Assembly (NCBI RefSeq): GCF_039537585.1
Contig: NZ_BAABAU010000003.1
Location: 124,001 to 188,000, forward strand
From: Frondihabitans peucedani
Lineage (GTDB): Bacteria; Actinomycetota; Actinomycetes; Actinomycetales; Microbacteriaceae
Direction: 5' to 3'
DNA length: 64,000 nucleotides
The translations under genes were made by a program, and so were the position numbers. Of the stretch, positions 1 to 60,012 are shown piece after piece. The notes beneath the pieces are model-generated. The model had not been told where the DNA came from and did no database searches. It saw nothing but the letters and a program-made list of their open reading frames with translations. The first letter of the stretch is position 1. Each line of letters begins with the position of its first letter.

Positions 1-202
1 CGCTCCGCTCGGCGAGGTCGAGCGTCGAGATGCCGACCGAGCAGCCGATCTCGAGGACCCGGCCGAGGCGCTCCTCCGGCAGAGACGCGAGCAGGATCCT
101 GCGCTTCCTGATCTCGTACCAGCGCCGCTCGAGCCCCCACGGGTCGCCCTTCCCCTCGTGCCGAGCGTCGAAGTGGGCTTCCGCGGCATCGAGGGCGATC
201 AT
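1..202 (-). CDS. Class I SAM-dependent methyltransferase, NodS-like (partial, N-terminal 67 residues)
   Basis: The gene runs off the left edge; only the N-terminus is present. The visible protein starts MIALDAAEAHFDARHEG, continues with a WGLERRWYEIRKRRILLASLP segment, and reaches EIGCSVGIST, the glycine-rich SAM-binding loop (motif I) of class I methyltransferases. The PWG-x-E-x-x-WYE-x-RK pattern just before motif I is typical of the NodS/small-molecule methyltransferase family. The ATG at 202 is preceded 7 nt upstream by a -10-like TACCGT and no Shine-Dalgarno sequence, so the mRNA is probably leaderless. It is divergent from the LCP gene. The substrate cannot be told; a role in cell-surface glycan modification would be only a guess from the neighbour. 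Confidence 0.8.
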   Translation of the reverse strand, partial: MIALDAAEAHFDARHEGKGDPWGLERRWYEIRKRRILLASLPEERLGRVLEIGCSVGISTLDLAERS

Positions 203-209
203 TCTGCCG

Positions 210-215
210 ACGGTA
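210..215 (-). promoter_or_regulatory. -10 element for leaderless methyltransferase gene
   Basis: TACCGT on the minus strand, 7 nt before the ATG at 202, fits the actinobacterial TANNNT -10. No clear -35 is seen. Confidence 0.4.
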
Positions 216-254
216 GACGCCCCTACCGGATGCGGGCCGCGAAGGCCAAGGGGA

Positions 255-282
255 TTGACAGATCGTCCCCCTGGATGAGAAT
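255..282 (+). promoter_or_regulatory. Candidate promoter of the LCP gene
   Basis: A perfect TTGACA (255-260) is followed after 16 nt by GAGAAT (277-282). The -35 is consensus; the -10 is poor. It lies about 80 nt before the LCP start at 362. Confidence 0.35.
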
Positions 283-361
283 CACGGGCCTCCGGGATGA
301 GAAACGCCCCCGCTCAGCTATTCTTCGGGTCGATCACTGTTTTCGATGATTGGGTTCCGGA

Positions 362-1843: not shown

Positions 1844-1860
1844 CGCGTCGCTGCGCCAGT

Positions 1861-1894: not shown

Positions 1895-2356
1895 CGATCG
1901 GGGCGCCTCCGCCGACGTTTCTCCTGCATTAGGCGTCCCACCGTGGCCTCGCGCCCGCGCGAGCGCCACGAGCGCCCCGCCGAGGAGCGCCCCGGCCGTG
2001 TTCGACGCAAGGTCTCCGGCCGAGGCGAGCCGGGCAGGCAGCAGCGTGTACTGCGCGAACTCGACCGAGAGGGAGAGGGTCAGCCCGAGGACGCCGGAGA
2101 CCCACCAGAGCGGACGCACGAACACCGACGCCAGGAGGGCGCCGAGCGGCGCGAAGAGCAGCACGTTCGCCGCGGTCTGCACGAAGTCGTAGTCGACGAA
2201 GGCCGGGAGCCCGAGGCCGTGCCAGCGGAGGAGCGTGTGCTGGAGTGTTCCGTCGATAGGCGCGTCGACGCGCGAGGGCCAGAGCGTGACCAGCAGGATC
2301 AGCACCACCGCCACCCCGACGGCGACCCACTCGGTGCGCCGCAGTCGTCTCTCCAC
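1889..2356 (-). CDS. VanZ family membrane protein
   Basis: Small integral membrane protein of the VanZ-like superfamily (155 residues). The segment VAVGVAVVLILLVTLWP is the first helix; NVLLFAPLGALLASV and SVEFAQYTLLPARLASAGDL follow, the latter resembling the E-x-x-Q...R-x-x-D/S-x-x-D core of VanZ proteins. VanZ of enterococci gives low teicoplanin resistance; most chromosomal relatives have no known function and there is no vanA/vanS neighbourhood here. A longer frame reaches back through tRNA-Ala and must be non-coding there. The GTG at 2356 is supported by a TACGGT -10 exactly 6 nt upstream, the same leaderless geometry as many other genes in the window. Confidence 0.8.
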   Translation of the reverse strand: MERRLRRTEWVAVGVAVVLILLVTLWPSRVDAPIDGTLQHTLLRWHGLGLPAFVDYDFVQTAANVLLFAPLGALLASVFVRPLWWVSGVLGLTLSLSVEFAQYTLLPARLASAGDLASNTAGALLGGALVALARARGHGGTPNAGETSAEAPRSA

Positions 2357-2362
2357 CCGACG

Positions 2363-2368
2363 ACCGTA
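2363..2368 (-). promoter_or_regulatory. -10 element for leaderless VanZ gene
   Basis: TACGGT on the minus strand ends 6 nt before the GTG at 2356, which fixes that start. No -35 consensus. Confidence 0.45.
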
Positions 2369-2409
2369 GCGGACTGGCTCCGACAAACCTGACCCTGAGA
2401 AGACGAAAT

Positions 2410-2431
2410 GGCCCCTTCCGTGGAAGGAGCC
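2410..2431 (-). terminator. Intrinsic terminator of tRNA-Ala
   Basis: On the minus strand GGCTCCTTCC and GGAAGGGGCC (one mismatch) form a 10-bp stem with a 2-nt apparent loop (4 nt in practice), followed by ATTTCGTCTTCT. It lies about 40 nt downstream of the tRNA 3' end. Confidence 0.6.
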
Positions 2432-2435
2432 ATCG

Positions 2436-2470
2436 TGTCGTACTCGGGTGATTCTTGTCGTACTCGGGTG
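2436..2470. repeat. Tandem direct repeat next to the tRNA-Ala 3' end
   Basis: TGTCGTACTCGGGTG occurs at 2436-2450 and 2456-2470, period 20. The second copy touches the last two bases of the tRNA. It may be a trailer duplication; no integrase or element boundary is nearby. Confidence 0.6.
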
Positions 2471-2541
2471 GATCTGAGGGGACTCGAACCCCTGACCCCC
2501 TGCATGCCATGCAGGTGCGCTACCAGCTGCGCCACAGACCC
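2469..2541 (-). tRNA. tRNA-Ala (anticodon GGC)
   Basis: Complete 73-nt cloverleaf without encoded CCA. Acceptor strands GGGTCTG and CAGATCC pair with one G-U, discriminator A. The anticodon arm is CCTGC-ATGGCAT-GCAGG, so the anticodon is GGC and alanine codon GCC (very frequent here) is read. The T arm has GGTTCGAGTCC. Confidence 0.96.
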
Positions 2542-2694
2542 AGATTGGATCGACTCGAAGTGAATCGACCCGAACAGGATTTCTCCTGATTCGATGTTGT
2601 TCCTCGCGGAGCAACCTGTAAATCGTACTACAGAAATCGACGCGTCAAGAACACGCAGCGCGGCAGGCGGGCACGGAGAGCTGCGCGCGCAGGA

Positions 2695-3072
2695 TCACGC
2701 CTCCTGCGACGTCGTCTCGAGCTCGAGGGCGATGGCGGGGCAGTCGCTCCAGAGGCGCTCGAGCGAGTAGAACTGGCGGTCTTCGTCGTGGAACACGTGC
2801 ACGACGATGTCGCCGAAGTCGAGGAGCACCCAGCGGCCCTCGGAGCGGCCCTCGCGACGGAGCGGCTTGACGCCCGCCTCTATCATCTTGTCTTCGATCT
2901 CGCCGGCGATGGCGATCACGTTCCGCTCGTTGCGGCCGGAGGCCAGCAGGAAGATGTCGGTGAGGGCGAGGGGCTCGGAGACGTCGAGGGCGACCAAGTC
3001 TTCGGCCTGCTTCGAGTCGGCGGCGCGGGCGGCGAGCTGAAGCAGCTCGATGGCACGGGGAGTGGCTGTCAC
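2695..3072 (-). CDS. rsfS: Ribosome silencing factor RsfS
   Basis: RsfS (formerly IojAP) binds L14 on the large ribosomal subunit and blocks joining to the 30S subunit in slow growth. The 125-residue protein has the family pattern: KQAEDLVALDVSEPLALTDIFLLASGRNERNVIAIAGEI, then GRSEGRWVLLDFGDIVVHVFHDEDRQFYSLERLW. Length is normal. The GTG start at 3072 has AAGGAA 6 nt upstream. It is the last gene of the run small membrane protein - nadD - 468-aa membrane protein - rsfS; the nadD/rsfS association is common in bacteria. A copy of the window-wide GCAGGATC motif overlaps its stop codon. Confidence 0.95.
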   Translation of the reverse strand: MTATPRAIELLQLAARAADSKQAEDLVALDVSEPLALTDIFLLASGRNERNVIAIAGEIEDKMIEAGVKPLRREGRSEGRWVLLDFGDIVVHVFHDEDRQFYSLERLWSDCPAIALELETTSQEA

Positions 3073-3138
3073 GGATTCCTTTTGTGGAAAGACGAATGAG
3101 CTCGCGGCGCGGCCGGGAGCGAGGAGAAGAGCTGGGAA

Positions 3139-4545
3139 CTACAGGACGTGGGTCGCGAAACCCGCGATGACGAGTCCAACGATAACAAGAATGACCGCGC
3201 CGCCAAAGATGCCAGCGATGATCGGCAGGCGATTGGTCTTGGGCTTGCCCGCCGTCAGGACCACCGCGCGCGTCGAGGTGTTGGCGCTCACGGCCCGGCT
3301 CGCCCGCACCGGGGTCGCGTCGGAGTCGGGCTGCTCGCGGTCGCCCTCCTCGAGCATCCGGTCGATGTCGGAGCCGTCGATGCGCTGGGCGTGGTGCGAT
3401 CCCGTGGCCGCGAGGCTCCGCGGCAGGTCGATCGAGCCGGTGATGATGACCTCGCCCGTGGCGTTCAGGGCCCCGGTGACGTCGGGCAGCTGGTCGTTGC
3501 CGATAATGAGCGCGTTGTGCTGGCCGGTCGAGGTGATCGAGCCGAAGTGGGCTCCGACACTCTCGACCGTGTCGTCGTCGAGGTCGGCCTGCGTCGACCA
3601 GTGGCCGGTCGGCGGCACGTAGCCGCTCGGCTCCGGCACGGACGCCGGGATCTGCGGCTGACGCGGAGCCGACGGCGCCGCAGCGGCAGGCGCGGGAGCG
3701 GCAGCAGCCGGCGCAGCAGCAGCAGGCGCAGCAGCAGCAGGCGCAGCCGTGGCGGGCGCAGGATCAGCCGACCGCACCTCGCCCGTATTACCGGCGGCGG
3801 GCTCCGCCTCGGGCGTCGGAGCCGACCCGAGCGAGAAGGGGAAGACGGTGGGCGTCGAGGACGGCGCCGGGGTCGACGACGCGATCCGCTCGGCCACGCC
3901 CGCATCGGCCTCGTCGAGCTTCGGCGCGGCACCGTGGCGGCGCGGTCCCGGCGCTGGTTCCGCGTCGTCGGCGGTAGAGGCCCGGACGCCGGACACACTG
4001 TCGTTCGAAGGCGCCTCAGCCGAGGGCGCCTCGGCCGCAATCGGAGCGGAGTCCCGGCCGGCGGAGACCGGCATCGGGAGCCCGGCATCCGCGGCCGTCT
4101 CGACGTCGTCACCATCGCTGTCGTCGTCCGAAGCGGGGGCCGCGGGCGAGGGGGCACTCGTGCGCGGCGCCTCTCGCGGAGGGACCGGCGTCGTGGCTCG
4201 ACCGTTCTCGATGTCGGCGACGTGGCTCAGGGCCTCGGAGAGGTCGCGCTCGTGCTCGGGCTTCGGTGCGCGGAGCGGGACGGGATCGGCGGGCGCCGGC
4301 GCCGAGGCCTCGCGGAGGGCGCGGAGTTCGCGGCGCGTCGGGGTGTGGGCTGATCCTGGAGCCTGGACCGAGGCGGGGGCGCTCGAGACTGGTGCGGGCG
4401 ACGGCGACGTGACGGGCATGGCCGAGGGGACGGGGCTGCCGGAGATCACCGAGATGCTCCCGGTGACGGCTTCGCCGGCTTCGCGGGCCCGCTCGAGCTC
4501 GCGCACCTGACGTCTGGTGAGGGGCGGCTGGCCGTTGGAACTCAT
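3139..4545 (-). CDS. Uncharacterised tail-anchored membrane protein between nadD and rsfS
   Basis: I do not recognise a named family. The 468-residue protein starts at the ATG at 4545, overlapping the nadD stop by 4 nt (ATGA), so it is translationally coupled to nadD. The N-terminus has a basic helix [16 protein letters not shown], echoed by [13 protein letters not shown] about 70 residues on. A long Pro/Ala/Glu-rich disordered middle (about 90-330) includes an Ala-rich tract. A better-folded stretch (about 350-430, [26 protein letters not shown]) precedes a single C-terminal helix, [21 protein letters not shown]. This looks like a cytoplasmic domain tethered to the membrane by its C-terminus. 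Function unknown. Confidence 0.75.
3690..3752. repeat. Ala-coding trinucleotide/15-mer repeat
   Basis: Imperfect tandem copies of GCAGCAGCAGGCGCA inside the 468-aa membrane protein gene encode the AAAAP tract. Length variation between strains would stay in frame. Confidence 0.6.
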
Positions 4546-5575: not shown

Positions 5576-6865
5576 CTACCCGCGCACCTGACCGGCACCC
5601 CGGACGATCCACTTCGTGCTCGTGAGCTCCGGCAGGCCCATGGGGCCCCGGGCGTGCAGCTTCTGCGTCGAGATGCCGACCTCGGCGCCGAAGCCGAACT
5701 CGCCGCCGTCCGTGAAGCGCGTGGAGGCGTTCACCATCACGACGGCGCTGTCGACCTCGGCCAGGAAGCGCTCGGTGGAGCGCACGTCGTTGCTGATGAT
5801 CGACTCGGTGTGGCGGGTGGAGTAGCGGCGGATGTGGTCGAGGGCCGCGTCGAGGTCGTCGACGATCCGGACCGAGATGTCGAGCGACATGTACTCGGTC
5901 GACCAGTCGTCGTCGGTCGCGGGGACCGCGTCGGCGAACAGGGCGCGGGTGGCCTCGTCGGCGTGGATCGTCACGCCGGCGCCGCGCAGGTCGGCGAGGA
6001 CCGACGGCAGGATGCGGTCGGCTGCGGACCGGTGGACCAGCAGCGTCTCGAGGGCGTTGCAGACGCTCGGCCGCTGCACCTTCGCGTTGTGGACGATGTC
6101 GACGGCCCAGCCCTCGTCGGCCGACTCGTCGACGAAGACGTGGACGACCCCGGCGCCGGTCTCGATCACCGGGACCTTCGACTCCCGCACGACCGTGTCG
6201 ATCAGCTGGGCGCTCCCCCTCGGGATGAGCACGTCGACGAGACCGCGGGCGCGCATCAGCTCTGTGGCGCCACGACGGCCGAACTCGTCGATGGTCTGCA
6301 CGGCGTCTCGCGGGAGCCCGACGCTCTCGAGCGCCTCCTGCAGCACGCGGACCAGCACGCGGTTGGTGTCTTCGGCCGCGCTCCCGCCGCGGAGGACGAC
6401 GGCGTTGCCGCTCTTGAGCGCCAATGCCGCGATGTCGACGGTGACGTTCGGCCTCGCCTCGTAGATGGCGCCGACGACGCCGAACGGCACGCGCACCTGG
6501 GTCAGCTGGAGGCCGTTCGGCAGGACCTTGCCGCGGAGCACCTCGCCCACCGGGTCGACCAGGGAGGCGATGAGCTCGGTCGCCGTGGCGAGCCCCTCGA
6601 GGCGCGACTCGTCGAGTCGGAGCCGGTCGACGAGCCCCGCGGCGAGGCCGTTCTCACGACCGCGGTCGAGGTCGACGGCGTTCGCCCGGATGATCTCCGC
6701 CGTGTTCGAGCGCACGGCGTCGGCGATCGCGAGGAGTCCGCGGTTCTTGACGTCGGCGGTGACCGTCGAGAGCGCCCGCGAGGCGGTCTTCGCCCGCTCG
6801 AGCGTGGCGACGAGCGCAGGATCGAGGGTCTCGGACTCGAGCCCTCGGGCTTCGGTGATCGACAT
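5576..6865 (-). CDS. proA: Glutamate-5-semialdehyde dehydrogenase (gamma-glutamyl phosphate reductase)
   Basis: ProA reduces gamma-glutamyl phosphate with NADPH in proline synthesis, acting directly after ProB. The 429-residue protein is full length and has [21 protein letters not shown], the [15 protein letters not shown] cofactor region, and the catalytic cysteine C269 in [14 protein letters not shown]. It lies 72 bp behind proB on the same strand. A TACACT -10 sits exactly 6 nt before its ATG, so besides read-through from proB it probably has its own leaderless promoter. Confidence 0.97.
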
Positions 6866-6937: not shown

Positions 6938-7777
6938 TCAGCCGTCGAGCGACGGTCGCGCCTCGAACCAGGTGCCGATCTCGGCCCCGTCGAGGGCCTC
7001 GGCGACGAGAGGCGTGGAGGTCACGAGGACGGGCGTCCCCGCACCCGCGGCGAGCCGGGCCGCGGCGACCTTCGTGCCCGCTCCCCCGGTGCCGACGCCG
7101 GCCGATCCTGCGTCGCCGAAGGTCACGCCGGCCAGGTCGTCGCCGAACGGGACCTCGGCGATCTTGATCGCGCCCTCTTCGTGCGGCGGCCTCGTGTAGA
7201 GGGCGTCGACGTCCGACAGCAGCACGAGCAGGTCGGCCTCGACGAGCTCCGACACGAGCGCTGCGAGGCGGTCGTTGTCGCCGAAGCGGATCTCGTGGGT
7301 GGCGACGGTGTCGTTCTCGTTGACGATCGGCAGGATGCGCAGTTTCAGCAGGCGCTCCATCGCGCGCTGGGCGTTCGACCGGTGCGTCGGGTTGTCGATG
7401 TCGCTCGCGGTGAGGAGCACCTGCCCGGCGACGACGTCGTAGCGGCGGAGGCTCTCCTGGTAGCGGTAGATGAGGATGTTCTGCCCGACGGCCGCTGCGG
7501 CCTGCTGCGTGGCGAGGTCGGTGGGCCGGGAGTCGAGCCGGAGGAAGGGCATCCCCGTGGCGATTGCGCCGGACGACACCAGGATCACCTCGGAGCCGCG
7601 ACCGTAGGCGGCCGCCAGCGCGTCCACGAGCGGCTCGATCTGGCCCGCGTTGCCGCCGGAGATCGACGAGGAGCCGACCTTGACGACGATCCTGCGCGCC
7701 CTCGGCACGTCGGAGCGCGACCGGACGCGGCCGAGCGGCGCGGCGTCGGCGGGCAGGCGGGCCTCGGCGCTGGTCAC
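6938..7777 (-). CDS. proB: Glutamate 5-kinase, short form without PUA domain
   Basis: ProB phosphorylates glutamate with ATP, the first and usually feedback-controlled step of proline synthesis. The amino-acid-kinase fold is clear: [15 protein letters not shown] near the N-terminus, [10 protein letters not shown], and [23 protein letters not shown]. At 279 residues it lacks the C-terminal PUA domain of the roughly 370-residue E. coli enzyme; short forms are known. The start ATG overlaps the obgE stop by 4 nt (ATGA), so translation is coupled to obgE. Confidence 0.96.
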
Positions 7778-10576: not shown

Positions 10577-11331
10577 ATCGAGATCGGCGGCTCGGGCCTC
10601 GGAGCCGGTGATGCCCCGGCAGTCGGGGCGGGAGCCGGGGCAGGATCGGGCGCCGGGACAGGGGTCGCAGAGGGAGCCGGGGCCCGGGTCGGAGCCGGGG
10701 CGTCCTCGCGAGGTGCGGCCGTGGCATCCTGCGCTCCCTCGCCCGGCTCGACCGGCACGCGGAGGAGCCAGAGCCATGCGACCACCGCTCCCCCGACAAG
10801 CACGGCCGTGAGCTGCACGCCGGCCGCGATCGGGATGAAGACGACCCAGAGGGCGATGTCGACCGCATCGCCCGACGAGACGCTGCGGCTGACACCGGTC
10901 ACGATGCCGACGAGCATGAGCACGACGGTCGCGCCAGTTCCGGCGAGGAGCGCCCTTCGGACGACGGTCGGGAGCGAGGCCTCGCGCAGGATCGGGAGCA
11001 CCAGCGCCAGGAGCGCGAACGCGGCCAGGTAGAAGGGAAACGGGTACAGCACGAGCGAGCCGAGGAAGAGCCCGATCGGCGACCGCAGGAAGCCGTTCGA
11101 GTAGAACGACGGGTCGTACGCGACCGCGTTGCCGAGGAGCTGCACGAACGCGACGGCGAACCGAACGACGATCAGGCACCCGACGGCGACGGCCGCCGTC
11201 ACCACCGTGTCGAGCCCGGGACGCCGCACGGCCAGGCTCCGCCATCGCGGCCGGCGCTCCGGTCCCCTCGGGGCATGAGGAACGCCCGGTGCGGTCGGCG
11301 AGTCGTGCTGGCCGGGCCGGGCGTTCGTCAC
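10549..11331 (-). CDS. Uncharacterised four-helix membrane protein
   Basis: A 260-residue protein with four predicted helices (about 43-70, 90-120, 127-150, 163-195) between a basic N-terminus and a long Pro/Ala-rich cytoplasmic tail ending [10 protein letters not shown]. No family recognised. It lies 39 bp after rne on the same strand and is probably co-transcribed with it; the GTG start at 11331 has GAGGAG about 9 nt upstream. Its 3' end is antisense to DUF4031 over 28 bp. Confidence 0.75.
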   Translation of the reverse strand: MTNARPGQHDSPTAPGVPHAPRGPERRPRWRSLAVRRPGLDTVVTAAVAVGCLIVVRFAVAFVQLLGNAVAYDPSFYSNGFLRSPIGLFLGSLVLYPFPFYLAAFALLALVLPILREASLPTVVRRALLAGTGATVVLMLVGIVTGVSRSVSSGDAVDIALWVVFIPIAAGVQLTAVLVGGAVVAWLWLLRVPVEPGEGAQDATAAPREDAPAPTRAPAPSATPVPAPDPAPAPAPTAGASPAPRPEPPISIYAPPDDRD

Positions 11332-14441: not shown

Positions 14442-15050
14442 GTGTCGTCACCAACCACGAGTAAGCAGCCCGTCACGACAGCGATCCTGCTGATCGTCGC
14501 CGGCCTGATCGGCTTCTACGGCTCGTTCAAGCTGGTGGTCGAGAAGTACGACCTGCTCGAGCACCCGAAGAAGGCGCTCGGCTGCGACATCAACCCGTTC
14601 GTGTCGTGCTCGTCGGTGATCGACAGTGCGCAGTCGCACCTCTTCGGCTTCCCGAACCCGATCCTCGGCGTCGCCGGATTCGTCGCGCCGATCGCGGTCG
14701 GCATCGGCATCCTGGCCGGCGCCCGCTTCGCCCGGTGGTACTGGATCGCGTTCAACGCGGGCCTGTTCCTGGCCTGGGTCTTCGTGACCTGGCTCTTCAC
14801 GCAGACGGTCTTCGTCATCGGGGCGCTCTGCCCGTGGTGCATGCTCGTCTGGTCGGCGACGATCCCGCTGTTCTGGATCTTCACCGTGTGGAATCTCGCG
14901 ACCGGGCGTCTGACGACCAGCGAGACCCTCCAGCGCAGGATGCGGGCGTTCCTGCCGTTCTCCTGGGTCCTGGCCCTGATCAACTACCTGATCATCGTGA
15001 TCGTGATCCTGCAGCACTTCCCGCTGCTCATCTCCGCCCTGTTCGGCTGA
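14442..15050 (+). CDS. Vitamin K epoxide reductase (VKOR) family protein
   Basis: Bacterial VKOR is a membrane quinone reductase that re-oxidises DsbA and so drives disulfide formation in exported proteins, replacing DsbB in actinobacteria. The 202-residue protein has about five membrane helices, the loop cysteines C48 and C56 (LGCDINPFVSCSSV) and the active-site C130-P-W-C133 pair, plus the conserved serine (SCSSVI). GTG start with a leaderless-type -10. A DsbA-like thioredoxin gene follows 135 bp downstream, which supports the role. Confidence 0.93.
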   Translation: MSSPTTSKQPVTTAILLIVAGLIGFYGSFKLVVEKYDLLEHPKKALGCDINPFVSCSSVIDSAQSHLFGFPNPILGVAGFVAPIAVGIGILAGARFARWYWIAFNAGLFLAWVFVTWLFTQTVFVIGALCPWCMLVWSATIPLFWIFTVWNLATGRLTTSETLQRRMRAFLPFSWVLALINYLIIVIVILQHFPLLISALFG

Positions 15051-41048: not shown

Positions 41049-41080
41049 AAGAGGGCAGGATCCGCGGATCCTGCCCTCTT
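41049..41080. terminator. 32-bp perfect palindrome, terminator of tig
   Basis: A perfect palindrome with CCGCGG centre lies between tig and clpP1, about 19 nt after the tig stop. Its stem contains GCAGGATC on both strands (41055-41062 and 41067-41074). TT follows. Confidence 0.8.
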
Positions 41081-41098
41081 CGATGTCTCTACGGCCGC

Positions 41099-41170
41099 TT
41101 ACGCGTGGTCGTGACCCTCGTGGTCGTGACCCTCGTGGTCGTGACCGGCGTGGTCGTGACCGGCGTGGTC
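41099..41170. repeat. Tandem repeat coding the His-rich trigger-factor tail
   Basis: Imperfect 15-bp units GTGGTCGTGACCCTC / GTGGTCGTGACCGGC, about four copies, encode repeated HDHEG / HDHAG. Confidence 0.75.
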
Positions 41171-46720: not shown

Positions 46721-46855
46721 CCGGGAGCGGCCGCCGCGGCCCATGGTGCCACCGACCGGACCGCGCCGGGGGTTATCCCCACCCGGCCGGGTCCCGTGAT
46801 CCTGCCGCACAGGAGCGAGGCCAGCCTCACCTCAGTGAGCCCAGCCTCAGCTTGC

Positions 46856-47527: not shown

Positions 47528-48988
47528 TCAGAGGGCGCGGTGGGTGAAGCGGCCTCCGAGCAGCGTCGCCGCGACGGGCATCGAGCGGAGGTCGACGCCC
47601 GGCTCCAGCGGGTCGCGGTCGAGCACGACCAGGTCGGCGACGCTCCCGTGCAGGATCGCGGCCCTCCCGTCGGTCGAGGCCTCGAGGGCCACCGCCGCCG
47701 GCAGCCGCTGCTCGGGGTGCCACGGCTCGCGCCCGTCGCGCGACCTCGTGACCGCGGCAGCCATCGCGACCCACGGATCGAGGGGCGCCACCGGGGCGTC
47801 CGACCCGAGGCGCAGCCGCACGCCGGCCCGGGCGAGCGCCTCGAGCGGGAAGGCCCGGTCGGTGCGGCCCTCCCAGTAGACCTCGGCGACGTCGCGGTCG
47901 TCCATGGCGTGCTCGGGCTGGACGCTCGCGGTCACGCCGAGGCGGGCGAAGCGCTCGACGTCGCTCCGGCGGAGGAGCTGCGCGTGCTCGATCGATCCGG
48001 AGCAGCCGGCCTCCTCGAACGCGTCGAGGGCGATCGTGTTCGCGTGGTCGCCGATGGCGTGGACGGCCGGCGTCAGACCGGCGTCGCTCGCCCGGCGCAG
48101 GAGGGCGACGAGCTCTGCCGGCGTGAAGACGGAGACGCCGACGCCGACGCCGTCCGGGTAGGGGTCGTGGCAGTACGCGGTCCGGGTGTTCAGCGACCCG
48201 TCGGTGATGACCTTCGCCGGACCCATCGTCACCAGCCCGCGGCCCCCGGGGATGTCGTCGCCGCTGCGGAGGCCGCGGGCGATCACCTCGTCGAGATCGC
48301 GCGGGTACACGCCGGCCCGGACCCGGACGCTGTCGGCGCCCTTCTCGACGCGAGCGACCCAGGCCTCGAGGGAGAGGGTCATCTCGAGGTCGACGACGCC
48401 CACGACGCCGCGCTCGGCCGCCGCCCGCGTGGCATCGACGACCCACTCGTCGATCCTGCCGCTGTCGACCGACGTGATGATCGCGCTGGCGTCGAAGGCG
48501 TCCTGCTCCCGGAGGAGCCCGGTCGAGTGCTCGGGGGCGCCGACGAGCGCCAGGCCGGTCGTGTTCAGCCAGACGGCGTGGAGGTCGGAGCTCACCAGGG
48601 CGACGGGGATCGAGCCCGCCGCGTCGAGGAGCGCGGCCGTCGGCTCGTCGGGCCACAGGGCGTCGCGGAAGCCGTAGCCGACCAGCAGGTCGCGGTCTGC
48701 GGGACGGCCCTCGGCGACCCTGCGCCGGACCAGGTCGACGGCCTCGAGCGCGGATGCCGCCGCGGACACGTCGAGGCGCTGCCGGACGAGAGCCCACTGC
48801 TGCATGTGCGTGTGGGCGTCCCAGAGGCCCGGCGCCAGGAAGCGGCCGTCGAGGTCGACGACCTCGGCGCCGCCCGGAGCGATGCCGGAGACGATCGCCG
48901 AGACGAGCCCGTCTTCGAGCAGGACGTCGGTCGGCTCGCCGTCGCGACCGACCAGCCGGGCGTTCTGGAGCAGCACCGGGGATGTCAT
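47528..48988 (-). CDS. Amidohydrolase family 3 protein (YtcJ-like)
   Basis: Metal-dependent hydrolase of the amidohydrolase superfamily. The 486-residue protein has FLAPGLWDAHTHMQQW with the metal pair H59/H61, AIGDHANTIALDAF, SIEHAQLL and LGSDAPVAPLDPW with the metal Asp. This is the pattern of YtcJ/AepA proteins, whose substrates are mostly unknown amides or carbamates. The ATG at 48988 overlaps the stop of the PaiB gene by 4 nt (ATGA), so the two are coupled. Confidence 0.88.
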   Translation of the reverse strand: MTSPVLLQNARLVGRDGEPTDVLLEDGLVSAIVSGIAPGGAEVVDLDGRFLAPGLWDAHTHMQQWALVRQRLDVSAAASALEAVDLVRRRVAEGRPADRDLLVGYGFRDALWPDEPTAALLDAAGSIPVALVSSDLHAVWLNTTGLALVGAPEHSTGLLREQDAFDASAIITSVDSGRIDEWVVDATRAAAERGVVGVVDLEMTLSLEAWVARVEKGADSVRVRAGVYPRDLDEVIARGLRSGDDIPGGRGLVTMGPAKVITDGSLNTRTAYCHDPYPDGVGVGVSVFTPAELVALLRRASDAGLTPAVHAIGDHANTIALDAFEEAGCSGSIEHAQLLRRSDVERFARLGVTASVQPEHAMDDRDVAEVYWEGRTDRAFPLEALARAGVRLRLGSDAPVAPLDPWVAMAAAVTRSRDGREPWHPEQRLPAAVALEASTDGRAAILHGSVADLVVLDRDPLEPGVDLRSMPVAATLLGGRFTHRAL

Positions 48989-50671: not shown

Positions 50672-51156
50672 CAGTCGACCGGGTGGCCCTGGATGCGGCC
50701 GGTGGTCTCGTACTCGGCGAGCTGGGCGATCCTGCGCTCGTGACGCTCCTCGAACGAGAAGGGTGTCTTGATGAACTCGTCGATGAGGGCGATCGCCTCG
50801 TCTTCGGAGTGCTGGCGCGCGCCGATCGCGACCACGTTGGCGTCGTTGTGCTGCCGGGCCAGCTGCGCGGTCGAGGTGTTCCAGGCGAGCGCCGCGCGGA
50901 CGCCCTCGACCTTGTTCGCCGCGATCTGCTCGCCGTTGCCCGATCCGCCGAAGACGACGCCGAGGCTCTCGAGGCCCTCGCTCTGGTCGCGGACCACGGC
51001 ACGCGCCGCGGCGATGCAGAACGACGGGTAGTCGTCGAGAGGCTCGTAGGTCTTCGGACCGTGGTCGGTCACGTCGTGACCCTGGTCGGAGAGGTGGCGG
51101 ATGAGGGTCTGAGCGAATTCGAGGCCGGCGTGGTCGGTCGCAACGTGGATGCGCAT
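50671..51156 (-). CDS. rpiB: Ribose-5-phosphate isomerase B
   Basis: Interconverts ribulose-5-P and ribose-5-P in the pentose phosphate pathway. The 161-residue protein has MRIHVATDHAGLEF, DDYPSFCIAAARAVV and VVFGGSGNGEQIAANKVEGVRAALAWN. The actinobacterial active site with GSGNGE (Glu/Ser rather than the E. coli-type Cys) is present. The frame is open 10 codons further, but TAGGAT 7 nt before the ATG at 51156 supports this start and a leaderless mRNA. Confidence 0.95.
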   Translation of the reverse strand: MRIHVATDHAGLEFAQTLIRHLSDQGHDVTDHGPKTYEPLDDYPSFCIAAARAVVRDQSEGLESLGVVFGGSGNGEQIAANKVEGVRAALAWNTSTAQLARQHNDANVVAIGARQHSEDEAIALIDEFIKTPFSFEERHERRIAQLAEYETTGRIQGHPVD

Positions 51157-53391: not shown

Positions 53392-53948
53392 GCCTCGCCT
53401 TCGACACCAGCCCCTGGCTGATGGTCGTCGACATGCAGCGCGTCTTCGGCGAGCCGGGCAGCGACTGGTTCACCCCGGGCTTCGCCGAGGCGAGCGCAGG
53501 ATCCCTGCGCCTCCGCGAGGCGTTCGGCCCGCGCACCGCGCTCACCCGCTTCGCAGCCCCGGAGGAGCCCCGCGGAGCCTGGGTGCCCTACTACCGCGAC
53601 TGGCCCTTCGCGCTCGTCCCGGAGTCCGACCCGCTCTACGAGCTCATGCCGGAGTTCCCGGTGCAGGATGCCCGGGTCGTCACCCGCACGACGTTCGGCA
53701 AGTGGGACTCGGGCACCGCGGAGGAGCTCGGCGACCCGCTCGACATCGTCCTCTGCGGCGTCTCCACCGACTGCTGCGTCCTGTCGACGGCCCTCGCCGC
53801 CGCCGACGCCGGAGTGCGGGTCCGCGTCGCCGCGGACGCCTGCGCCGGCCTCAGCGAGCTCGACCACCAGCGTGCCCTCGACGTGATGAGCCTCTACGCG
53901 CCGCTCATCGAGATCACCTCGGTGGACGAGATCCTGGACTCGCTCTGA
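53388..53948 (+). CDS. Isochorismatase-like cysteine hydrolase
   Basis: A 186-residue member of the cysteine-hydrolase family that includes nicotinamidase, N-carbamoylsarcosine amidase and RutB. The triad is visible: Asp15 (LMVVDMQRVF), Lys105 (TTFGKWDSG) and Cys129/130 (GVSTDCCVLSTAL). No nicotinamidase DxHxxxH metal site is seen, so amidase or ureidohydrolase activity is more likely. The GTG at 53388 overlaps the permease stop (GTGA), which ties it to uptake of a nucleobase-like compound. Confidence 0.88.
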   Translation: MSLAFDTSPWLMVVDMQRVFGEPGSDWFTPGFAEASAGSLRLREAFGPRTALTRFAAPEEPRGAWVPYYRDWPFALVPESDPLYELMPEFPVQDARVVTRTTFGKWDSGTAEELGDPLDIVLCGVSTDCCVLSTALAAADAGVRVRVAADACAGLSELDHQRALDVMSLYAPLIEITSVDEILDSL

Positions 53949-54041: not shown

Positions 54042-56609
54042 GTGCCAGGAGAGAACCTCACCCGTGTCGAGGCGCAGGAGCGCAAGAGCATTCTCGACGT
54101 CCAGTCGTACGAGGTCGATCTCGACCTGACGCGGGGCGCCGAGGTCTTCGGCAGCACGACCACCGTGACCTTCACCGCGACCGAGGGCGCGTCGACCTTC
54201 ATCGACGCCTTCACCCGCACGGTGCACTCCGTGACGCTCAACGGCGAGTCCCTCGACCCGGCCGCGGTGAGTGACGGCGTCCGCATCCAGCTCGACTCCC
54301 TGGCCGCCTCGAACGTCCTCACCGTCGTCGCCGACGCCGAGTACACCAACACCGGCGAGGGCCTCCACCGCTTCGTCGACCCGGTCGACGACGAGGTCTA
54401 CCTCTACTCGCAGTTCGAGGTGCCCGACAGCCGCCGCGTCTTCGCCGTCTTCGAGCAGCCCGACCTCAAGGCGACGTTCCGCTTCACGATCACCGCTCCC
54501 GCCCGCTGGGAGGTCGTGTCGAACCAGATCACGCCGGAGCCCGTCGTCGACGGCGACGTCGCGACGTGGTCGTTCGAGCCCACCTCCGTCATGTCGAGCT
54601 ACATCACGGCGATCGTCGCCGGCCCCTACGACGTCGTGCGCTCGTCGCTCACGTCGTCCGACGGCCGCGAGATCCCGCTCGGCATCTTCACGCGCAAGTC
54701 GCTCTCCGAGCACATGGACAGCGACTACATCTTCGAGAAGACCCGCCAGGGCTTCGCCTACTACGAGGAGAAGTTCGACTACCCGTACCCCTTCGAGAAG
54801 TACGACCAGCTCTTCGTCCCCGAGTTCAACGCCGGCGCGATGGAGAACGCGGGCGCGGTGACCTTCACCGAGACCTACGTGTTCCGCAGCAAGGTCACCG
54901 ACGCCATCAAGGAGCGCCGGGTCGTCACGATCCTGCACGAGCTCGCCCACATGTGGTTCGGCGACCTCGTGACCATGAAGTGGTGGAACGACCTCTGGCT
55001 GAACGAGTCGTTCGCCGAGTGGGCGTCGACGATCTCGACCGCCGAGGCGACCGAGTGGACGGAGGCCTGGACCACGTTCCAGGCGATGGAGAAGAGCTGG
55101 GCGTACCGGCAAGATCAGCTCCCCTCGACCCACCCGGTCGTGGCGACCATCAACGACCTCGAGGACGTCCAGGTCAACTTCGACGGGATCACCTACGCCA
55201 AGGGCGGATCGGTGCTCAAGCAGCTCGTCGCCTGGGTCGGCATCGACGCGTTCTACGCCGGCGTCGCCGCGTACTTCAAGAAGCACCACCACTCGAACAC
55301 CGAGCTCAGCGACCTCCTCACCGAGCTCGAGACGACCTCCGGCCGCGAGCTCACCAGCTGGTCGAAGCTCTGGCTCGAGACCGCTGGAGTCAACACGCTG
55401 CGCCCCGAAATCGAGACCGACGCGGACGGGATCATCACGTCGTTCGCCGTCGTGCAGACCGCGCCCGCCGACTACCCGACGATCCGCCCGCACCGCCTCG
55501 CCATCGGCCTCTACGAGCTCGAGGTCACCGACCTCGAGGGCGGCGACCCCGCCAGCGCCGAGCTCGTGCGCGTGCACCGCGTCGAGATCGACGTCGACGG
55601 CGAGCGCACCGAGGTCCCGGAGCTCGTCGGTCTGGCGAAGCCCGCCCTCGTGCTGACGAACGACGACGACCTCGCGTACGCCAAGGTCCGGCTCGACGAC
55701 GACTCCCTGGCCACGGCCATCGAGCACCTCTCGAAGATCCAGAACCCGCTGGCCCGCGCGATCGTCTGGGGCTCGGTCTGGGACGCCACGCGCGACGCCG
55801 AGACCCCTGCCTCGAGCTACGTCGACCTGGTTCTGGCCAACATCGCCAGCGAGACCGAGTCGACGACGATCCGCACCACGCTCTCGCAGCTGACGCAGGC
55901 CGCCCGCAGCTACGTGGCGCCCGAGCGACGCGCGGCGACGATCGAGCGCGTCGGCGACGAGCTCTGGGCACTCGCCCAGGCGGCCGAGGCGGGGTCCGAC
56001 GCCCAGTTCCAGTTCGTGAAGTTCTTCGCCAGCATCCCGTCGACCGACGCCCACGCCGAGATCCTGCAGGGTCTCTCCGACGGCAGCGAGAAGCTCGAGG
56101 GGCTCGAGATCGACACCGACCTCCGCTGGGAGCTCCTCGAGGGCCTCGTGCTCGTCGGCAAGGCCGGCGAGACCGAGATCGACCAGGCGCTCGCGGCCGA
56201 CAACACCGCGAACGGCGCCCAGGCTGCCGCTCGTGCTCGCGCCGCCATCCCGACGACCGAGGCGAAGCTCGCCGCGTTCTCGTCGGTCGTCGACTCCGAC
56301 GAGCTGCCGAACGCCATCGTCCGCGCGACGGCGATGGGCTTCCAGCACACGAACGACCCGGCGATCCTCGCCCCGGTCGTCGAGCGCTACTTCTCGTCGC
56401 TCGCCGGCATCTGGGAGTCGCGGAGCTACCACATCGCCGACACGCTCGTCTCGGGTCTGTACCCGGCCGGGCTCGCCGACGAGTCGCTCGCCGCGGCGGC
56501 GACCACGTGGCTCGAGGCCAACCCCGAGACTCCTGCGCTCCGCCGGATCGTCACGGAGAGCCTCGCCGGCACCGATCGCGCGCTGCGGGTCCAGGCGGCC
56601 GACGCCTGA
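54042..56609 (+). CDS. pepN: Aminopeptidase N (M1 family)
   Basis: Cytoplasmic zinc aminopeptidase. The 855-residue protein has GAMEN at 265-269 (EFNAGAMENAGAVTF), zinc motif HELAH at 299-303 with the distal Glu at 322 (WLNESFAEW), and the long helical C-terminal ERAP1-like domain (about 530-850). Length is normal for actinobacterial PepN. GTG start at 54042 with a GGAG about 11 nt upstream; the gap before it holds a TAGGGT -10 candidate (53987-53992). A strong hairpin ends it. Confidence 0.96.
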   Translation: MPGENLTRVEAQERKSILDVQSYEVDLDLTRGAEVFGSTTTVTFTATEGASTFIDAFTRTVHSVTLNGESLDPAAVSDGVRIQLDSLAASNVLTVVADAEYTNTGEGLHRFVDPVDDEVYLYSQFEVPDSRRVFAVFEQPDLKATFRFTITAPARWEVVSNQITPEPVVDGDVATWSFEPTSVMSSYITAIVAGPYDVVRSSLTSSDGREIPLGIFTRKSLSEHMDSDYIFEKTRQGFAYYEEKFDYPYPFEKYDQLFVPEFNAGAMENAGAVTFTETYVFRSKVTDAIKERRVVTILHELAHMWFGDLVTMKWWNDLWLNESFAEWASTISTAEATEWTEAWTTFQAMEKSWAYRQDQLPSTHPVVATINDLEDVQVNFDGITYAKGGSVLKQLVAWVGIDAFYAGVAAYFKKHHHSNTELSDLLTELETTSGRELTSWSKLWLETAGVNTLRPEIETDADGIITSFAVVQTAPADYPTIRPHRLAIGLYELEVTDLEGGDPASAELVRVHRVEIDVDGERTEVPELVGLAKPALVLTNDDDLAYAKVRLDDDSLATAIEHLSKIQNPLARAIVWGSVWDATRDAETPASSYVDLVLANIASETESTTIRTTLSQLTQAARSYVAPERRAATIERVGDELWALAQAAEAGSDAQFQFVKFFASIPSTDAHAEILQGLSDGSEKLEGLEIDTDLRWELLEGLVLVGKAGETEIDQALAADNTANGAQAAARARAAIPTTEAKLAAFSSVVDSDELPNAIVRATAMGFQHTNDPAILAPVVERYFSSLAGIWESRSYHIADTLVSGLYPAGLADESLAAAATTWLEANPETPALRRIVTESLAGTDRALRVQAADA

Positions 56610-56631
56610 TCGTCGGCACTCGCTAGAACAC

Positions 56632-56777: not shown

Positions 56778-57902
56778 ATGGTCGCGATGATTCTCTCCCT
56801 CCTCGCAGCAGCCACGCCCACCCCCACGACCGGAGCCGTCGCCGAGATCGCGAAGGGCGCCGACGCGTTCTGGAGCATGTGGGGGAAGCCGATCGGGGTG
56901 CTGGCCGTGATCGTCGGGGCGATCCTGCTCCGGGTCGTCATCCACTTCGTGATCCGCCGCGTGGTCGCTCAGATCGTGAACGGCGTCAAGAAGAAGCAGA
57001 ACGTCGAGGACACCCAGGCGCTGAACTCGCCACTCCAGGCCGTGCGGGTCGTGCAGCGCACCCGGACCCTCGGCAGCGTCCTGAACAACGTGTCGTCGGT
57101 GATCATCATCGTGGTCGCGATCGCGGTGATCCTGAGCGTGCTGGACGTCAACACAGTGGGCATCGTGAGCGGTGCGAGCGTCATCGCGGCGGGCCTCGCG
57201 TTCGGCGCGCAGAACATCGTGAAAGACATCCTGAGCGGCATGTTCATCGTCCTCGAAGACCAGCTCGGCGTGGGCGACATCGTCGACGTGCAGCTCGCCA
57301 CCGGAGTCGTCGAGAACGTCGGGATCCGGGTGACCCAGGTCCGCGACGTCAACGGCACCCTGTGGTTCGTCCGGAACGGCGAGATCCTGCGCGTCGGCAA
57401 CATGTCGCAGGGCTGGGCTCGCGCCATCATCGACACCGCGGTGCCCTACGACACCGACATCGACGCCGTCGAGCAGACGATCCTGAAGGTCGCGGAGGGG
57501 CTTCAGCAGCAGCCGCGCTGGCGCACCCGGGTGCTCGAGAAGCCCGAGATCTGGGGCCTGCAGTCGATCTCCGACTCGGCGATGGTGATCCGTCTGGCGG
57601 TCCGCACGCGGTCGTCCGAGAAGGACAACGTGGCGCGGGAGCTGCGGGTCCGGCTGAAGAAGGCCCTCGACGAGACGGGCGTCACGCTCCCGTCGCTGAA
57701 CAGCGTCGTGCTCCAGGGCTTCGACGAGGCCAACTCGATCAAGGGCGCCCGCCCGGTCGAGACGGCGCCCACGCCCGTGCCGAGGGGACGAGGCGCCAAG
57801 GGAGCTCAGCGCCCGAGGATCTCCGTTCCTCCGCCCGGGGCTCCCGGGCCGCAGGCCCCGCGAGGCACCACCCGCGACACCCCGGGGGACGACGAGGCAT
57901 GA
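56778..57902 (+). CDS. MscS-type mechanosensitive channel
   Basis: Small-conductance mechanosensitive channel that relieves turgor. The 374-residue protein has helices at about 33-58 and 96-120 and the pore helix AGLAFGAQNIVKDILSGMFIVLEDQLGVGDIV, the strongest MscS signature. The beta domain (about 150-200) and a C-terminal alpha/beta domain follow, then a Pro/Arg-rich tail of 50 residues. Two N-terminal ATGs are possible (56778, 56787). Its stop overlaps the start of a globin gene (ATGA), an unusual pairing. Confidence 0.92.
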   Translation: MVAMILSLLAAATPTPTTGAVAEIAKGADAFWSMWGKPIGVLAVIVGAILLRVVIHFVIRRVVAQIVNGVKKKQNVEDTQALNSPLQAVRVVQRTRTLGSVLNNVSSVIIIVVAIAVILSVLDVNTVGIVSGASVIAAGLAFGAQNIVKDILSGMFIVLEDQLGVGDIVDVQLATGVVENVGIRVTQVRDVNGTLWFVRNGEILRVGNMSQGWARAIIDTAVPYDTDIDAVEQTILKVAEGLQQQPRWRTRVLEKPEIWGLQSISDSAMVIRLAVRTRSSEKDNVARELRVRLKKALDETGVTLPSLNSVVLQGFDEANSIKGARPVETAPTPVPRGRGAKGAQRPRISVPPPGAPGPQAPRGTTRDTPGDDEA

Positions 57903-58384
57903 CCGACGCGACCGAGGGCGATCCTGCTCCGACTCCTCCCACTCCCCTGGCCGCCCCGTCGATCCAGCCGATCACGGTGCGCCGGGGTCTCGGCGACGAC
58001 GCCGCGCAGGGCAACTTCTGGCGCGAGGTCGGCGGCAGGCCGACCTTCGAGCGCCTGGTGCGCCGGTTCTACGAGGGCGTGCGGCACGACGACGTCCTCT
58101 GGCCGATGTATCCCGAGCACGACCTCGAGGGGGCGATCCAGCGGCTGACCGGGTTCCTCGAGCAGTACTGGGGCGGCCCGACCGACTACAGCGACGAGCG
58201 GGGCCACCCGCGTCTGCGGATGCGTCACCAGCCGTTCAAGGTCAATCCGGCCGCGCGCGACCACTGGCTCGCGCACATGCACGAGGCCGTCGACTCGCTG
58301 GAGCTCTCGCCCCTTCACGAGGCGACCCTCTGGGGCTACCTCGAGCGGGCCGCCCACGCGATGGTGAACACCTTCGACGAGTAG
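57899..58384 (+). CDS. glbO: Truncated haemoglobin, group II (GlbO/trHbO)
   Basis: Haem protein that binds O2 and possibly NO or peroxide. The 161-residue protein has a 35-residue Pro-rich N-terminal extension, then the trHbO pattern: GRPTFERLVRRFYEGVRHDDVLWPMYPE (Tyr71 near CD1), GFLEQYWGGPTDYSDERGHPRLRMRHQPF (proximal His110) and RDHWLAHM with Trp123 (G8). ATG 57899 overlaps the MscS stop by 4 nt. Confidence 0.93.
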   Translation: MTDATEGDPAPTPPTPLAAPSIQPITVRRGLGDDAAQGNFWREVGGRPTFERLVRRFYEGVRHDDVLWPMYPEHDLEGAIQRLTGFLEQYWGGPTDYSDERGHPRLRMRHQPFKVNPAARDHWLAHMHEAVDSLELSPLHEATLWGYLERAAHAMVNTFDE

Positions 58385-58394
58385 CCGGAGGGGC

Positions 58395-59252
58395 TCAGCC
58401 GACGTAGCTGCCCGACTCGAACTCCTCGACGAGCGAGGGCCGCGACGGCGACCAGCCGAGGGCCTCGCGCGCGTGGGCTCCGGTGGCCCGCTGGTCGAGC
58501 AGGAGGGCGTCGGCGAAGGCCTCGCCGAGTCGTCCGCGCGCCGAGTCGGTCGTCTCGGGGACGACCGGCCAGCTGCGTCCGCGCGCGGCGGCCTCGCCGA
58601 GCTCGAGGACCGTCGGGTTCTGGCCCGAGACCCCGAGGTAGTACTCGTCGGCTGCGGCCGCGTCGAGCGCGAGGACGTACAGCTCGGCGAGGTCGTCGAC
58701 GTGGACGGTGGTCCAGTGCTGCGAGCCGTCGCCGACGAGCAGCACCTCTGCCCCGCCGAACAGCGTCGCCGGGATCCCCGAGCCGTTGCCGTAGACGATG
58801 GCGGGCGCGACGACCGTCGTGCGGACGCTGGACTCGCGGAGTCGACGCTCGATGTCGAGGCGCCAGGCGGTGATGGGGAGCGGCTGGAGGGGGCTCTCCT
58901 CGGTGAGGTCGTCGCCGTTCCCGAAGACCCAGACGCCGCCGGAGTGGACGTAGGGGGTGTCGGTGCCGTCGAGCGTGCGGATGACGAGGTCGGCGAGGGC
59001 CGAGTCGACCGCAGCGCTGGTGTCGTCGCCGGGCGATGCCGTGTGGATGACGCCGTCCGCGCCGACGAGCAGCGTCTCGAGGAGCTCGAGGTCGGTGATG
59101 TCGCCGACGACGGGCCGCGCGCCGAGCGCGGAGACCGCCGCGGCCTTCTCGTCGCTGCGGACGAGGGCGGTGACGTCGTGGCCGGTGGCGACGAGGCGTG
59201 TGAGGACGGCGGACCCGATGAGACCGGTGGCACCGGTGAGGAGAATCGACAT
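58395..59252 (-). CDS. NAD(P)-dependent epimerase/dehydratase (SDR) family protein
   Basis: Extended/atypical short-chain dehydrogenase of 285 residues. MSILLTGATGLIGSAVLTRL is the TGxxGxxG cofactor loop. ADGVIHTASPGDD and VHSGGVWVFGN follow, but the usual YxxxK is not obvious, so it may be an atypical SDR. APAIVYGNGSGIP, then TTVHVDDLAELYVLAL, is the standard C-terminal part. ATG 59252 has TAGCGT 7 nt upstream. Substrate unknown. Confidence 0.88.
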   Translation of the reverse strand: MSILLTGATGLIGSAVLTRLVATGHDVTALVRSDEKAAAVSALGARPVVGDITDLELLETLLVGADGVIHTASPGDDTSAAVDSALADLVIRTLDGTDTPYVHSGGVWVFGNGDDLTEESPLQPLPITAWRLDIERRLRESSVRTTVVAPAIVYGNGSGIPATLFGGAEVLLVGDGSQHWTTVHVDDLAELYVLALDAAAADEYYLGVSGQNPTVLELGEAAARGRSWPVVPETTDSARGRLGEAFADALLLDQRATGAHAREALGWSPSRPSLVEEFESGSYVG

Positions 59253-59259
59253 GCTCCGG

Positions 59260-59265
59260 ACGCTA
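59260..59265 (-). promoter_or_regulatory. -10 element for the epimerase-like gene
   Basis: TAGCGT on the minus strand, 7 nt before the ATG at 59252. The gap also contains GGAG, so it is not certain that the mRNA is leaderless. Confidence 0.4.
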
Positions 59266-59334
59266 CCCGGGTGGTCTGACCGGCTGCTCAGCGGCCGGTG
59301 GCGAAGCCGGTCGCGAGACAGGCGGGCGGCGAGG

Positions 59335-60012
59335 CTAGAGCAGCCCGCGCCGCTTCACCAGGACGTGGCCTCGGCTCGTGCTGAGCCTGGTCCACGCTCC
59401 GGCCGTGAACACCCGAGCGGCCTCGTCGGGCGCCAGGAATCCGAGCGTGAGAGCCGCGAACGCCGCACCCGCCGGCACCTGATCGGCGCCCTCGACGGGG
59501 CGCGACCACACCTCGGAGCGGACGCGGTGGACGATCTGCTCGCCGGTCCCCTCGGGGATCACGCGCGCCACCTCGTCGATGCCGCTCTTCGCCGTCGCCT
59601 CGAGCTGAGCGGACTCGACCGAGGTCACGGTCGACCAGCCGCCACGGGGCGGGGAGATCGCAGCCCAGGATGCCGCGACGGTCGCCGGGGGCAGCGGCAC
59701 CGCCACCGGGGAGGTCGGGTCGACGACCTCGTTCTGCAGCCGGGTCAGTCGCTCCTGCATCGCGCGGAGGGCGACGACGCGGTCGAAGGGCGCAGGATCG
59801 GCGTCTGCGGCCAGAGCGTACGTGCGGAGCCCGAGCACCGTGGGGCTCGAATCGAGGAGGCCGGCGGGAGCGAGGACACCGACGTAGGCTGCGAGGACCC
59901 CACCGCCGCCGATGAGGCGGGTCGCCCCGTCGTCGACGGCCGTGGCGCGGGCGAGGAAAGTGTGGAGGTCGTCGAGCGAGAGGGAGTCGGGAAGACGGAG
60001 TTCGGTAGTCAT
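59335..60012 (-). CDS. Hypothetical actinobacterial protein
   Basis: A 225-residue protein, MTTELRLPDSLSLDDLHTFLARATAVDDGATRLIGGGGVLAAYVGVLAPAGLLD..., mostly soluble, with a central RAMQERLTRLQNEV helix and SPPRGGWSTVTSV. It ends RVFTAGAWTRLSTSRGHVLVKRRGLL. I do not recognise a family. Divergent from tesB across 21 bp with overlapping -10 elements, so the two may be balanced against each other. Confidence 0.75.
   Translation of the reverse strand: MTTELRLPDSLSLDDLHTFLARATAVDDGATRLIGGGGVLAAYVGVLAPAGLLDSSPTVLGLRTYALAADADPAPFDRVVALRAMQERLTRLQNEVVDPTSPVAVPLPPATVAASWAAISPPRGGWSTVTSVESAQLEATAKSGIDEVARVIPEGTGEQIVHRVRSEVWSRPVEGADQVPAGAAFAALTLGFLAPDEAARVFTAGAWTRLSTSRGHVLVKRRGLL

Follow-up and report, generated by a model that had tools for sequence, protein, structure and literature searches.

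An iterated, chromosome-rich octamer with lineage dialects in Frondihabitans and other Microbacteriaceae: a candidate for a DNA-uptake-sequence-like role

To our knowledge, DNA uptake sequences are established in two Gram-negative families only. As described in the portions of the literature cited here, those of the Neisseriaceae are 10-mers with 943 to 5,918 copies per genome and with dialects round a core within the family (PMC3630211). Uptake sequences are non-palindromic, lack orientation bias, lie where they are tolerated and are accompanied by enriched near-miss forms, a prediction of uptake drive; even spacing is reported for the known ones and is not defining (PMC1939737). Two other kinds of short chromosomal word invite comparison: HIP1 of cyanobacteria, which is palindromic and associated with methyltransferases whose recognition site is its core (PMC4390886), and Chi, whose motifs also differ between lineages (PMC8022716). 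Here we describe the octamer GCAGGATC, which is heavily overused in a 64,000-nucleotide stretch of Frondihabitans peucedani (contig NZ_BAABAU010000003.1, positions 124,001 to 188,000; hereafter the window), and we compare it with these systems. Within the same phylum, Micrococcus luteus has comEA and comEC and transforms by means of Flp pili, according to the part of the source cited (PMC4322843). No actinobacterial uptake sequence was found in the open-licence literature searched, and the literature matches listed for the octamer itself were unrelated by title.

We tallied exact copies of GCAGGATC on both strands of the window and compared the count with 100 dinucleotide-preserving shuffles. 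There are 62 copies, 32 on the plus and 30 on the minus strand, against a shuffle mean of 3.29 and a largest shuffled count of 7. An initial annotation of this DNA had given about 60 (about 32 plus and 30 minus), which agrees closely, and its figure of about 15 for GCAGGATG is near the 17 that we counted (shuffle mean 1.78). A third-order Markov model, the check proposed there, predicts 8.6 copies of GCAGGATC in the window. The maximal-order Markov expectation is 60.0, which says merely that both 7-mers already hold the excess. The genome containing the window (G000; 3,692,699 bases in 12 contigs) has 3,208 copies, 1,579 forward and 1,629 reverse, or one per 1.15 kb, whereas the reversed word, our control, occurs 22 times (12 forward, 10 reverse). 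The enrichment therefore extends to the rest of the genome, and the word behaves as the genome-wide iterated word that the annotation had described.

To account for codon usage, we shuffled synonymous codons 30 times, keeping every protein and its codon usage, across the genes called by a simple gene caller in the window together with a 300-kb part of contig C1 (364 kb). These genes hold 240 copies of GCAGGATC against 23.9 expected and a shuffle maximum of 33, a ratio far from 1, so codon bias is no explanation, as had been argued from the window alone. The word occupies all six frame-strand classes, at 5- to 80-fold over expectation per frame: GAT CCT (48 observed, 0.6 expected), TCC TGC (4 and 0.1), ATC CTG (88 and 17.5), GCA GGA (25 and 0.5), AGG ATC (44 and 3.7) and CAG GAT (31 and 2.4). 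The peptide Asp-Pro-Ala occurs 89 times against 40 expected from residue frequencies (2.2 times), which suggests that the pull on the DNA word is strong enough to bend proteins. Flanking sequence carries at most 0.22 bit at each of eight positions per side. In the called genes of G000, certain forms with a single mismatch are enriched 2- to 3-fold; for variants with any first base, and for GCAGGATG, the figure is about 2.5- to 3-fold. We conclude that the excess of GCAGGATC is real, genome-wide and beyond codon usage. As a separate observation on the same genes, the Shine-Dalgarno-like word GGAGGATG is strongly avoided (3 copies, 44.6 expected).

The abundance of GCAGGATC itself is narrowly distributed. 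Among 150 Microbacteriaceae genomes, 146 have at most 686 copies, and G000, G004, G087 and G047 alone have more. The seven genomes sampled from its own genus hold 844 to 3,208 copies each; the five named Frigoribacterium genomes, which represent the closest named chromosomal relatives by trigger factor (85-87%), hold 214 to 261. Within the own genus, CAGGAT words differ by species, as GCAGGATC, GCAGGATGC or GCAGGATCC. GCAGGATC reaches 12.3 times its Markov expectation in G000 and is also the dialect of G180; GCAGGATGC reaches 33 times in G178 (19 copies against 0.6 in 46 kb) and GCAGGATCC 33 times in G004 (10 copies in 23 kb, with an expectation near 0.2-0.3), while both GCAGGATC and GCAGGAGC are high in G087. 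Under the codon null, the counts are 14 against 3.4 for GCAGGATG in G178, 8 against 0.6 for CAGGATCC in G004, and 209 against 27.4 for GCAGGATC in G087.

For the wider family we used 84 trigger-factor loci (a set of 80 minus four shorter than 11 kb, plus the window, plus 20 kb from each of seven relatives), each assigned to a word class by a threshold that we set ourselves. A GGATGC core was found in 42 loci, CAGGATC in 6, GGAGGCG in 5, CGGATCC in 1 and no clear word in 30. The classes cluster on the trigger-factor tree, with 22 changes against 34.9 when shuffled and none of 200 shuffles as low. In a codon-null ranking of non-palindromic words, with palindromes left out, GGATGC-core words came top on both gene strands in the Microbacterium, Agromyces, Herbiconiux, Salinibacterium/Subtercola and Mycetocola/Leifsonia flava sets. 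For the word CGGATGCC, 9 of 11 family genomes have 421-952 copies per Mb and the other two, G000 and G246, about 95-97; across 148 sampled genomes of other families its density, calculated from rounded sizes, never exceeds about 150 per Mb. Judged by these counts, dialects around a shared core exist in related species, and the word drifts inside its own genus; GGAGGCGC is a possible dialect of Frigoribacterium. No comparable word appeared in 15-20 kb from each of 13 genomes of other families of the order (17 were fetched and four with pieces shorter than 15 kb dropped), a weak negative because 20 kb is also too little to reveal the word in those same-genus genomes where it is weaker.

Several further observations arose from this survey. 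G246, of genus g85, has 313 copies of CGGATGCC against 2,309 to 3,329 in G106, G260, G274 and G288, and shows a weak GGATCC-type word instead; on copy number, this is a within-genus loss of CGGATGCC. Several family loci, among them those of Frigoribacterium and Agromyces, overuse GCGATCGC, the actual HIP1 sequence, relative to Markov expectation, with 72 copies against 16.3 expected on both strands of five Frigoribacterium loci. G005, a family genome of 1.4 Mb, overuses AGCGGATC (40 copies against about 12 in 80 kb). L048, a record titled Acidobacteria, falls within the Microbacteriaceae on the trigger-factor tree and is probably a mislabelled bin.

In 82 gap-free comparisons of GCAGGATC sites with same-genus relatives, 26 were identical and 32 had at least three mismatches; for 40 control words (178 comparisons), the numbers were 68 and 16. 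As aligned, the sites turn over, and their positional conservation is no better than that of the controls. The copy between clpX and clpP (39584-39591, minus strand) is GCAGGATC in 3 of 6 same-genus genomes (G004, G087 and G180) and one base off in the other three, G178 having GCAGGATG there, the favoured word of G178. The initial annotation had correctly placed this copy in non-coding DNA.

We compared chromosomes with plasmids and phages using observed/expected ratios from a dinucleotide-based Markov model, pairing different strains of the same genus, save for G000, where both sequences come from the same genome. In G000 the chromosomal 12.3x for GCAGGATC contrasts with 1.1x (6 copies) on the plasmid-like contig C2 (loci L096-L100), which is 94 kb long with 64% GC and encodes proteins that look conjugative; its closest match is a plasmid of Frondihabitans sp. 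PAMC 28766 (83.4% identity over 82% of a 12-kb query). Two Frondihabitans plasmids (first 50 kb each), for which the dialect of the host chromosome was not seen, stand at 1.9x pooled. For CGGATGCC in Microbacterium, the chromosome loci are at 6.4x, three plasmids at 1.9x and five phages at 1.7x. The chromosome of Herbiconiux is at 3.2x against 0.8x for one plasmid, and for GGAGGCGC in Curtobacterium the values are 3.2x and 0.7x, again with one plasmid. The words are thus chromosome-rich, and scarce in mobile DNA, with the sampled plasmids mostly near background. Restriction avoidance can be set aside, as CGGATGCC is not under-represented in the five Microbacterium phages (43 copies against 25.6 expected).

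Orientation was measured in the complete relative G087, sampled as 21 blocks of 20 kb round the chromosome. GCAGGATC occurs there 118 times forward and 107 times reverse (best-arc p 0.19), so that this one sampled chromosome shows no replichore strand bias; in 300 kb of G000 the strands are at 129 and 137. The absence of a clear strand skew, first noted in the window, thus holds beyond it. The four G087 blocks of lowest GC (at most 0.664) contain 2-5 copies each against 8-21 in the other 17.

The balance of this evidence leans towards GCAGGATC being a self-DNA mark of the DNA-uptake-sequence kind, used in natural transformation and accumulated through uptake bias. Put in terms of function, it works, somewhat more probably than otherwise, like an uptake sequence, although we do not class it as a member of the DNA uptake sequences. 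The initial annotation had called the role unknown. Among the roles that it listed, uptake is the best match, given the dialects and the scarcity of the word on plasmids; there is less support for HIP1-like methylation, Chi and nucleoid sites. Under the uptake reading, free DNA bearing the word would bind better to a putative surface receptor, perhaps on a Flp/Tad pilus or ComEA, enter through ComEC and recombine into the chromosome. Marked fragments would be imported more often, so that marked alleles would displace unmarked ones (uptake-driven gene conversion) and homologous stretches of the chromosome would gather the word at every place that their proteins allow. Lacking a chromosomal homologue for recombination, conjugative plasmids and islands would not gather it, and a slow shift in receptor preference would give each lineage its own dialect. 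Uptake bias, the receptor and the recombination drive are steps that we infer. In G000, comEA (HHH_3 and SLBB domains) adjoins comEC (Competence and metallo-beta-lactamase domains), and both are free of stops. ComEC was found in 148 of 150 family genomes, with no match in G012 (an assembly of 180 contigs) and G038 (420 contigs); being near-universal in the family, the competence genes lend weak support and are useless as a contrast.

A number of observations weigh against reading the word as an uptake mark. G051 has ComEC too, yet 100 kb of it yields no strong word, which means that the presence of competence genes is no predictor of the word. The 30 of 84 loci without a clear word count here too, with the proviso that 21 kb has limited power. 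The Frigoribacterium word GGAGGCGC, conspicuous under Markov models, falls to 116 against 45.9 (2.5x) once synonymous codons are shuffled, and other words then rank level with it. G047, of another genus and apart on the trigger-factor tree, shares CAGGATC/CAGGATCC words, which are therefore no clean clade marker; convergence, transfer or a misplaced long branch are possible causes. The gap between chromosome and plasmid is not always wide: one of the two Frondihabitans plasmids is at 2.5x for GCAGGATC (6 copies; the other is at 1.5x), Microbacterium plasmids are still at 3.5x for GGATGCCG against 9.0x for chromosomes, and in Agreia CGGATGCC shows a modest difference (4.1x against 2.5x). Non-coding DNA is not clearly preferred, at 975 copies per Mb against 877 in coding DNA; with a rough gene caller that covers just 74-80% of the DNA, the two densities are indistinguishable. 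Several other single-base variants are flat or depleted, such as GGAGGATC (9 against 38.7) and GCAGGACC (32 against 40). Spacing is approximately random, without evenness (coefficient of variation 1.10), and opposed pairs within 60 bp number 14 among 328 sites, slightly more than the approximately 9 expected by our own arithmetic, 7 of the 14 being a 12-bp palindrome; DNA uptake sequences would have roughly a tenth of their copies in such pairs, some of them in terminators.

Other explanations fare differently against the same data. That the word merely results from composition or codon usage, or from a mobile repeat that has dispersed, is scarcely credible: many other family genomes do hold roughly 50 to 150 copies of GCAGGATC per Mb, and in-frame Ile-Leu (ATC CTG) raises the baseline, yet the codon-preserving null yields 23.9 copies where 240 are observed and the flanks are flat over eight positions on each side. 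We rejected codon usage, composition and dispersed repeats on the strength of that null and those flanks. A Chi-like recombination hotspot, read by a nuclease of the RecBCD/AddAB/AdnAB type, would likewise be an eight-base, lineage-variable chromosomal word. Chi is oriented with replication, whereas GCAGGATC has no arc asymmetry in G087 and near-equal strands in 300 kb of G000, and its ten-fold excess over the codon null is larger than that known for Chi, so we regard this role as very unlikely; Chi and KOPS were set aside on the lack of arc asymmetry in G087, the one chromosome sampled. Binding by a nucleoid or chromosome-organising protein, hence on the chromosome and not on plasmids, would account for a word that is chromosome-rich, plasmid-poor and spread round the sampled chromosome, and is a somewhat better prospect, though still improbable: its places are no better conserved than those of control words (26/82 against 68/178 identical, and 32/82 against 16/178 with at least three mismatches), and the dialects shift within one genus. 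Less doubtful than any of these, while still unlikely, is a chromosome-only code of a wholly new kind, its dialects changing fast throughout an actinobacterial family, that some protein reads for a purpose other than uptake, methylation or Chi.

The likeness to HIP1 proposed by the initial annotation holds for a word iterated genome-wide and fails on two counts: palindromic symmetry is absent from the word, and none of the methyltransferases in four Pfam families (PF01555, PF02384, PF00145 and PF02086) tracks it. As a mechanism, a methyltransferase with its site inside the word would steer mismatch repair, making and keeping the word, and the density near one per kb resembles that of HIP1 in the part of the source cited (PMC4390886). 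A PF01555 methylase is present in 24 of 24 genomes searched, and the better of two matches in G000, the one covered by our identity comparisons, has no restriction gene among its neighbours (3.7 kb, judged by eye). This methylase, however, has orthologues in 8 of 8 word-rich genomes (90-95% identity within the genus, 63% in G047), and four Frigoribacterium share it at 84-85% identity; its central part, which we take to be the target recognition region, hardly changes in species that have other words or none clear, G246 included. The best PF01555 match of G005 is 28% identical to it, and that of G051 gives no alignment with it at 1e-5. The other families were found in 10 (PF02384), 8 (PF00145) and 4 (PF02086) of 20 genomes, and in 4, 2 and 3 of the eight rich ones, and all three are missing in G000, the richest. 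With neither GCAGGATC nor the GGATGC-core words palindromic, and with plasmids poor in the word, we hold this role to be as improbable as the nucleoid one; if it does hold, it may involve a methylase outside the four families, or a target overlapping several dialects. The PF01555 methylase at L165:1468-2457, found in most family genomes searched, lies beside GNAT-like and lipoate-ligase-like genes, as judged by eye.

Within the window, several copies of GCAGGATC belong to larger structures. The 12-bp palindrome GCAGGATCCTGC occurs twice only, at 91-102 (plus arm 91-98, minus arm 95-102) and at 34401-34412 (plus arm 34401-34408, minus arm 34405-34412); both had been reported, the second with a start at 34404. 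A terminator-like hairpin 3' of the trigger-factor gene tig, predicted by folding at 41048-41081, contains two opposed copies, one in each arm (41055-41062, plus; 41067-41074, minus). The initial annotation had picked out this pair, which is real and forms a 15-bp stem (-34.5 kcal/mol, z -7.16). Some neisserial uptake-sequence pairs likewise form terminator hairpins. Nearby, at the 3' end of the trigger-factor gene (41108-41180), short repeats encode a His/Asp-rich tail (HDHEGHDH). The copy at 36033-36040 (minus) aligns identically in 3 of 5 same-genus genomes (G178, G087 and G180), and that at 46798-46805 (minus), also reported as non-coding, is probably so, lying upstream of a gene start judged by eye.

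The remaining copies, all exact matches, lie on the plus strand at 2293-2300, 2689-2696, 3758-3765, 6816-6823, 10640-10647, 10986-10993, 16473-16480, 17506-17513, 19148-19155, 22526-22533, 23276-23283, 25519-25526, 27549-27556, 27909-27916, 30010-30017, 30191-30198, 30550-30557, 30907-30914, 32084-32091, 36866-36873, 37257-37264, 43365-43372, 43632-43639, 44974-44981, 45318-45325, 46456-46463, 47650-47657, 53496-53503 and 59792-59799, and on the minus strand at 664-671, 7104-7111, 7688-7695, 13728-13735, 14483-14490, 15005-15012, 18341-18348, 20130-20137, 22635-22642, 26251-26258, 27626-27633, 28575-28582, 29603-29610, 36674-36681, 43321-43328, 44499-44506, 46563-46570, 48452-48459, 50728-50735, 54929-54936, 56060-56067, 56921-56928, 57383-57390 and 57920-57927. 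Some of the positions given by the initial annotation are off by 1-3 (27626, 34401/34405, 36033, 57920, 30550 and 30907 are the correct starts).

If GCAGGATC is indeed an uptake mark, it would represent a third, independent uptake-sequence system, in a different envelope type. Its dialects would predict which Microbacteriaceae transform, and with whom, and would provide a means of transferring genes in Microbacterium, Frondihabitans and their relatives. The molecular-drive theory of uptake sequences would become testable on an origin separate from the known ones. Otherwise, a cause must still be found for a word in ten-fold excess that is concentrated on chromosomes and seems to bend proteins.

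Set beside the known systems, the word shares with HIP1 and the alternate HIPs of cyanobacteria, as the cited part of the source describes them, an octamer at about one per kb and the takeover by other words in some lineages (PMC4390886). It differs from HIP1 in having no palindrome, no fitting methyltransferase in the four Pfam families and word-poor plasmids. M. luteus offers, in the same phylum, comEA, comEC and a possible uptake route, in a report whose main text does not use the term 'uptake sequence' (PMC4322843). With the uptake signal sequences of the Pasteurellaceae, in the portion of the source cited, it has in common an iterated short word and the enrichment of some near-miss forms (PMC1939737); unlike them it has no flanking consensus within eight positions on either side. 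From the DNA uptake sequences of the Neisseriaceae it differs in sequence, in its Gram-positive, high-GC host, in random spacing with few opposed pairs, and in a putative receptor where theirs is ComP, uptake being proposed here from sequence. In the remaining respects the Neisseriaceae system, in the part of the source cited, is closely similar, with copies that run into the thousands on both strands, roughly one in each kb, a non-palindromic word, lineage dialects on a common core and foreign DNA poor in the word (PMC3630211). An opposed pair of copies in a terminator-like hairpin may be a further likeness.

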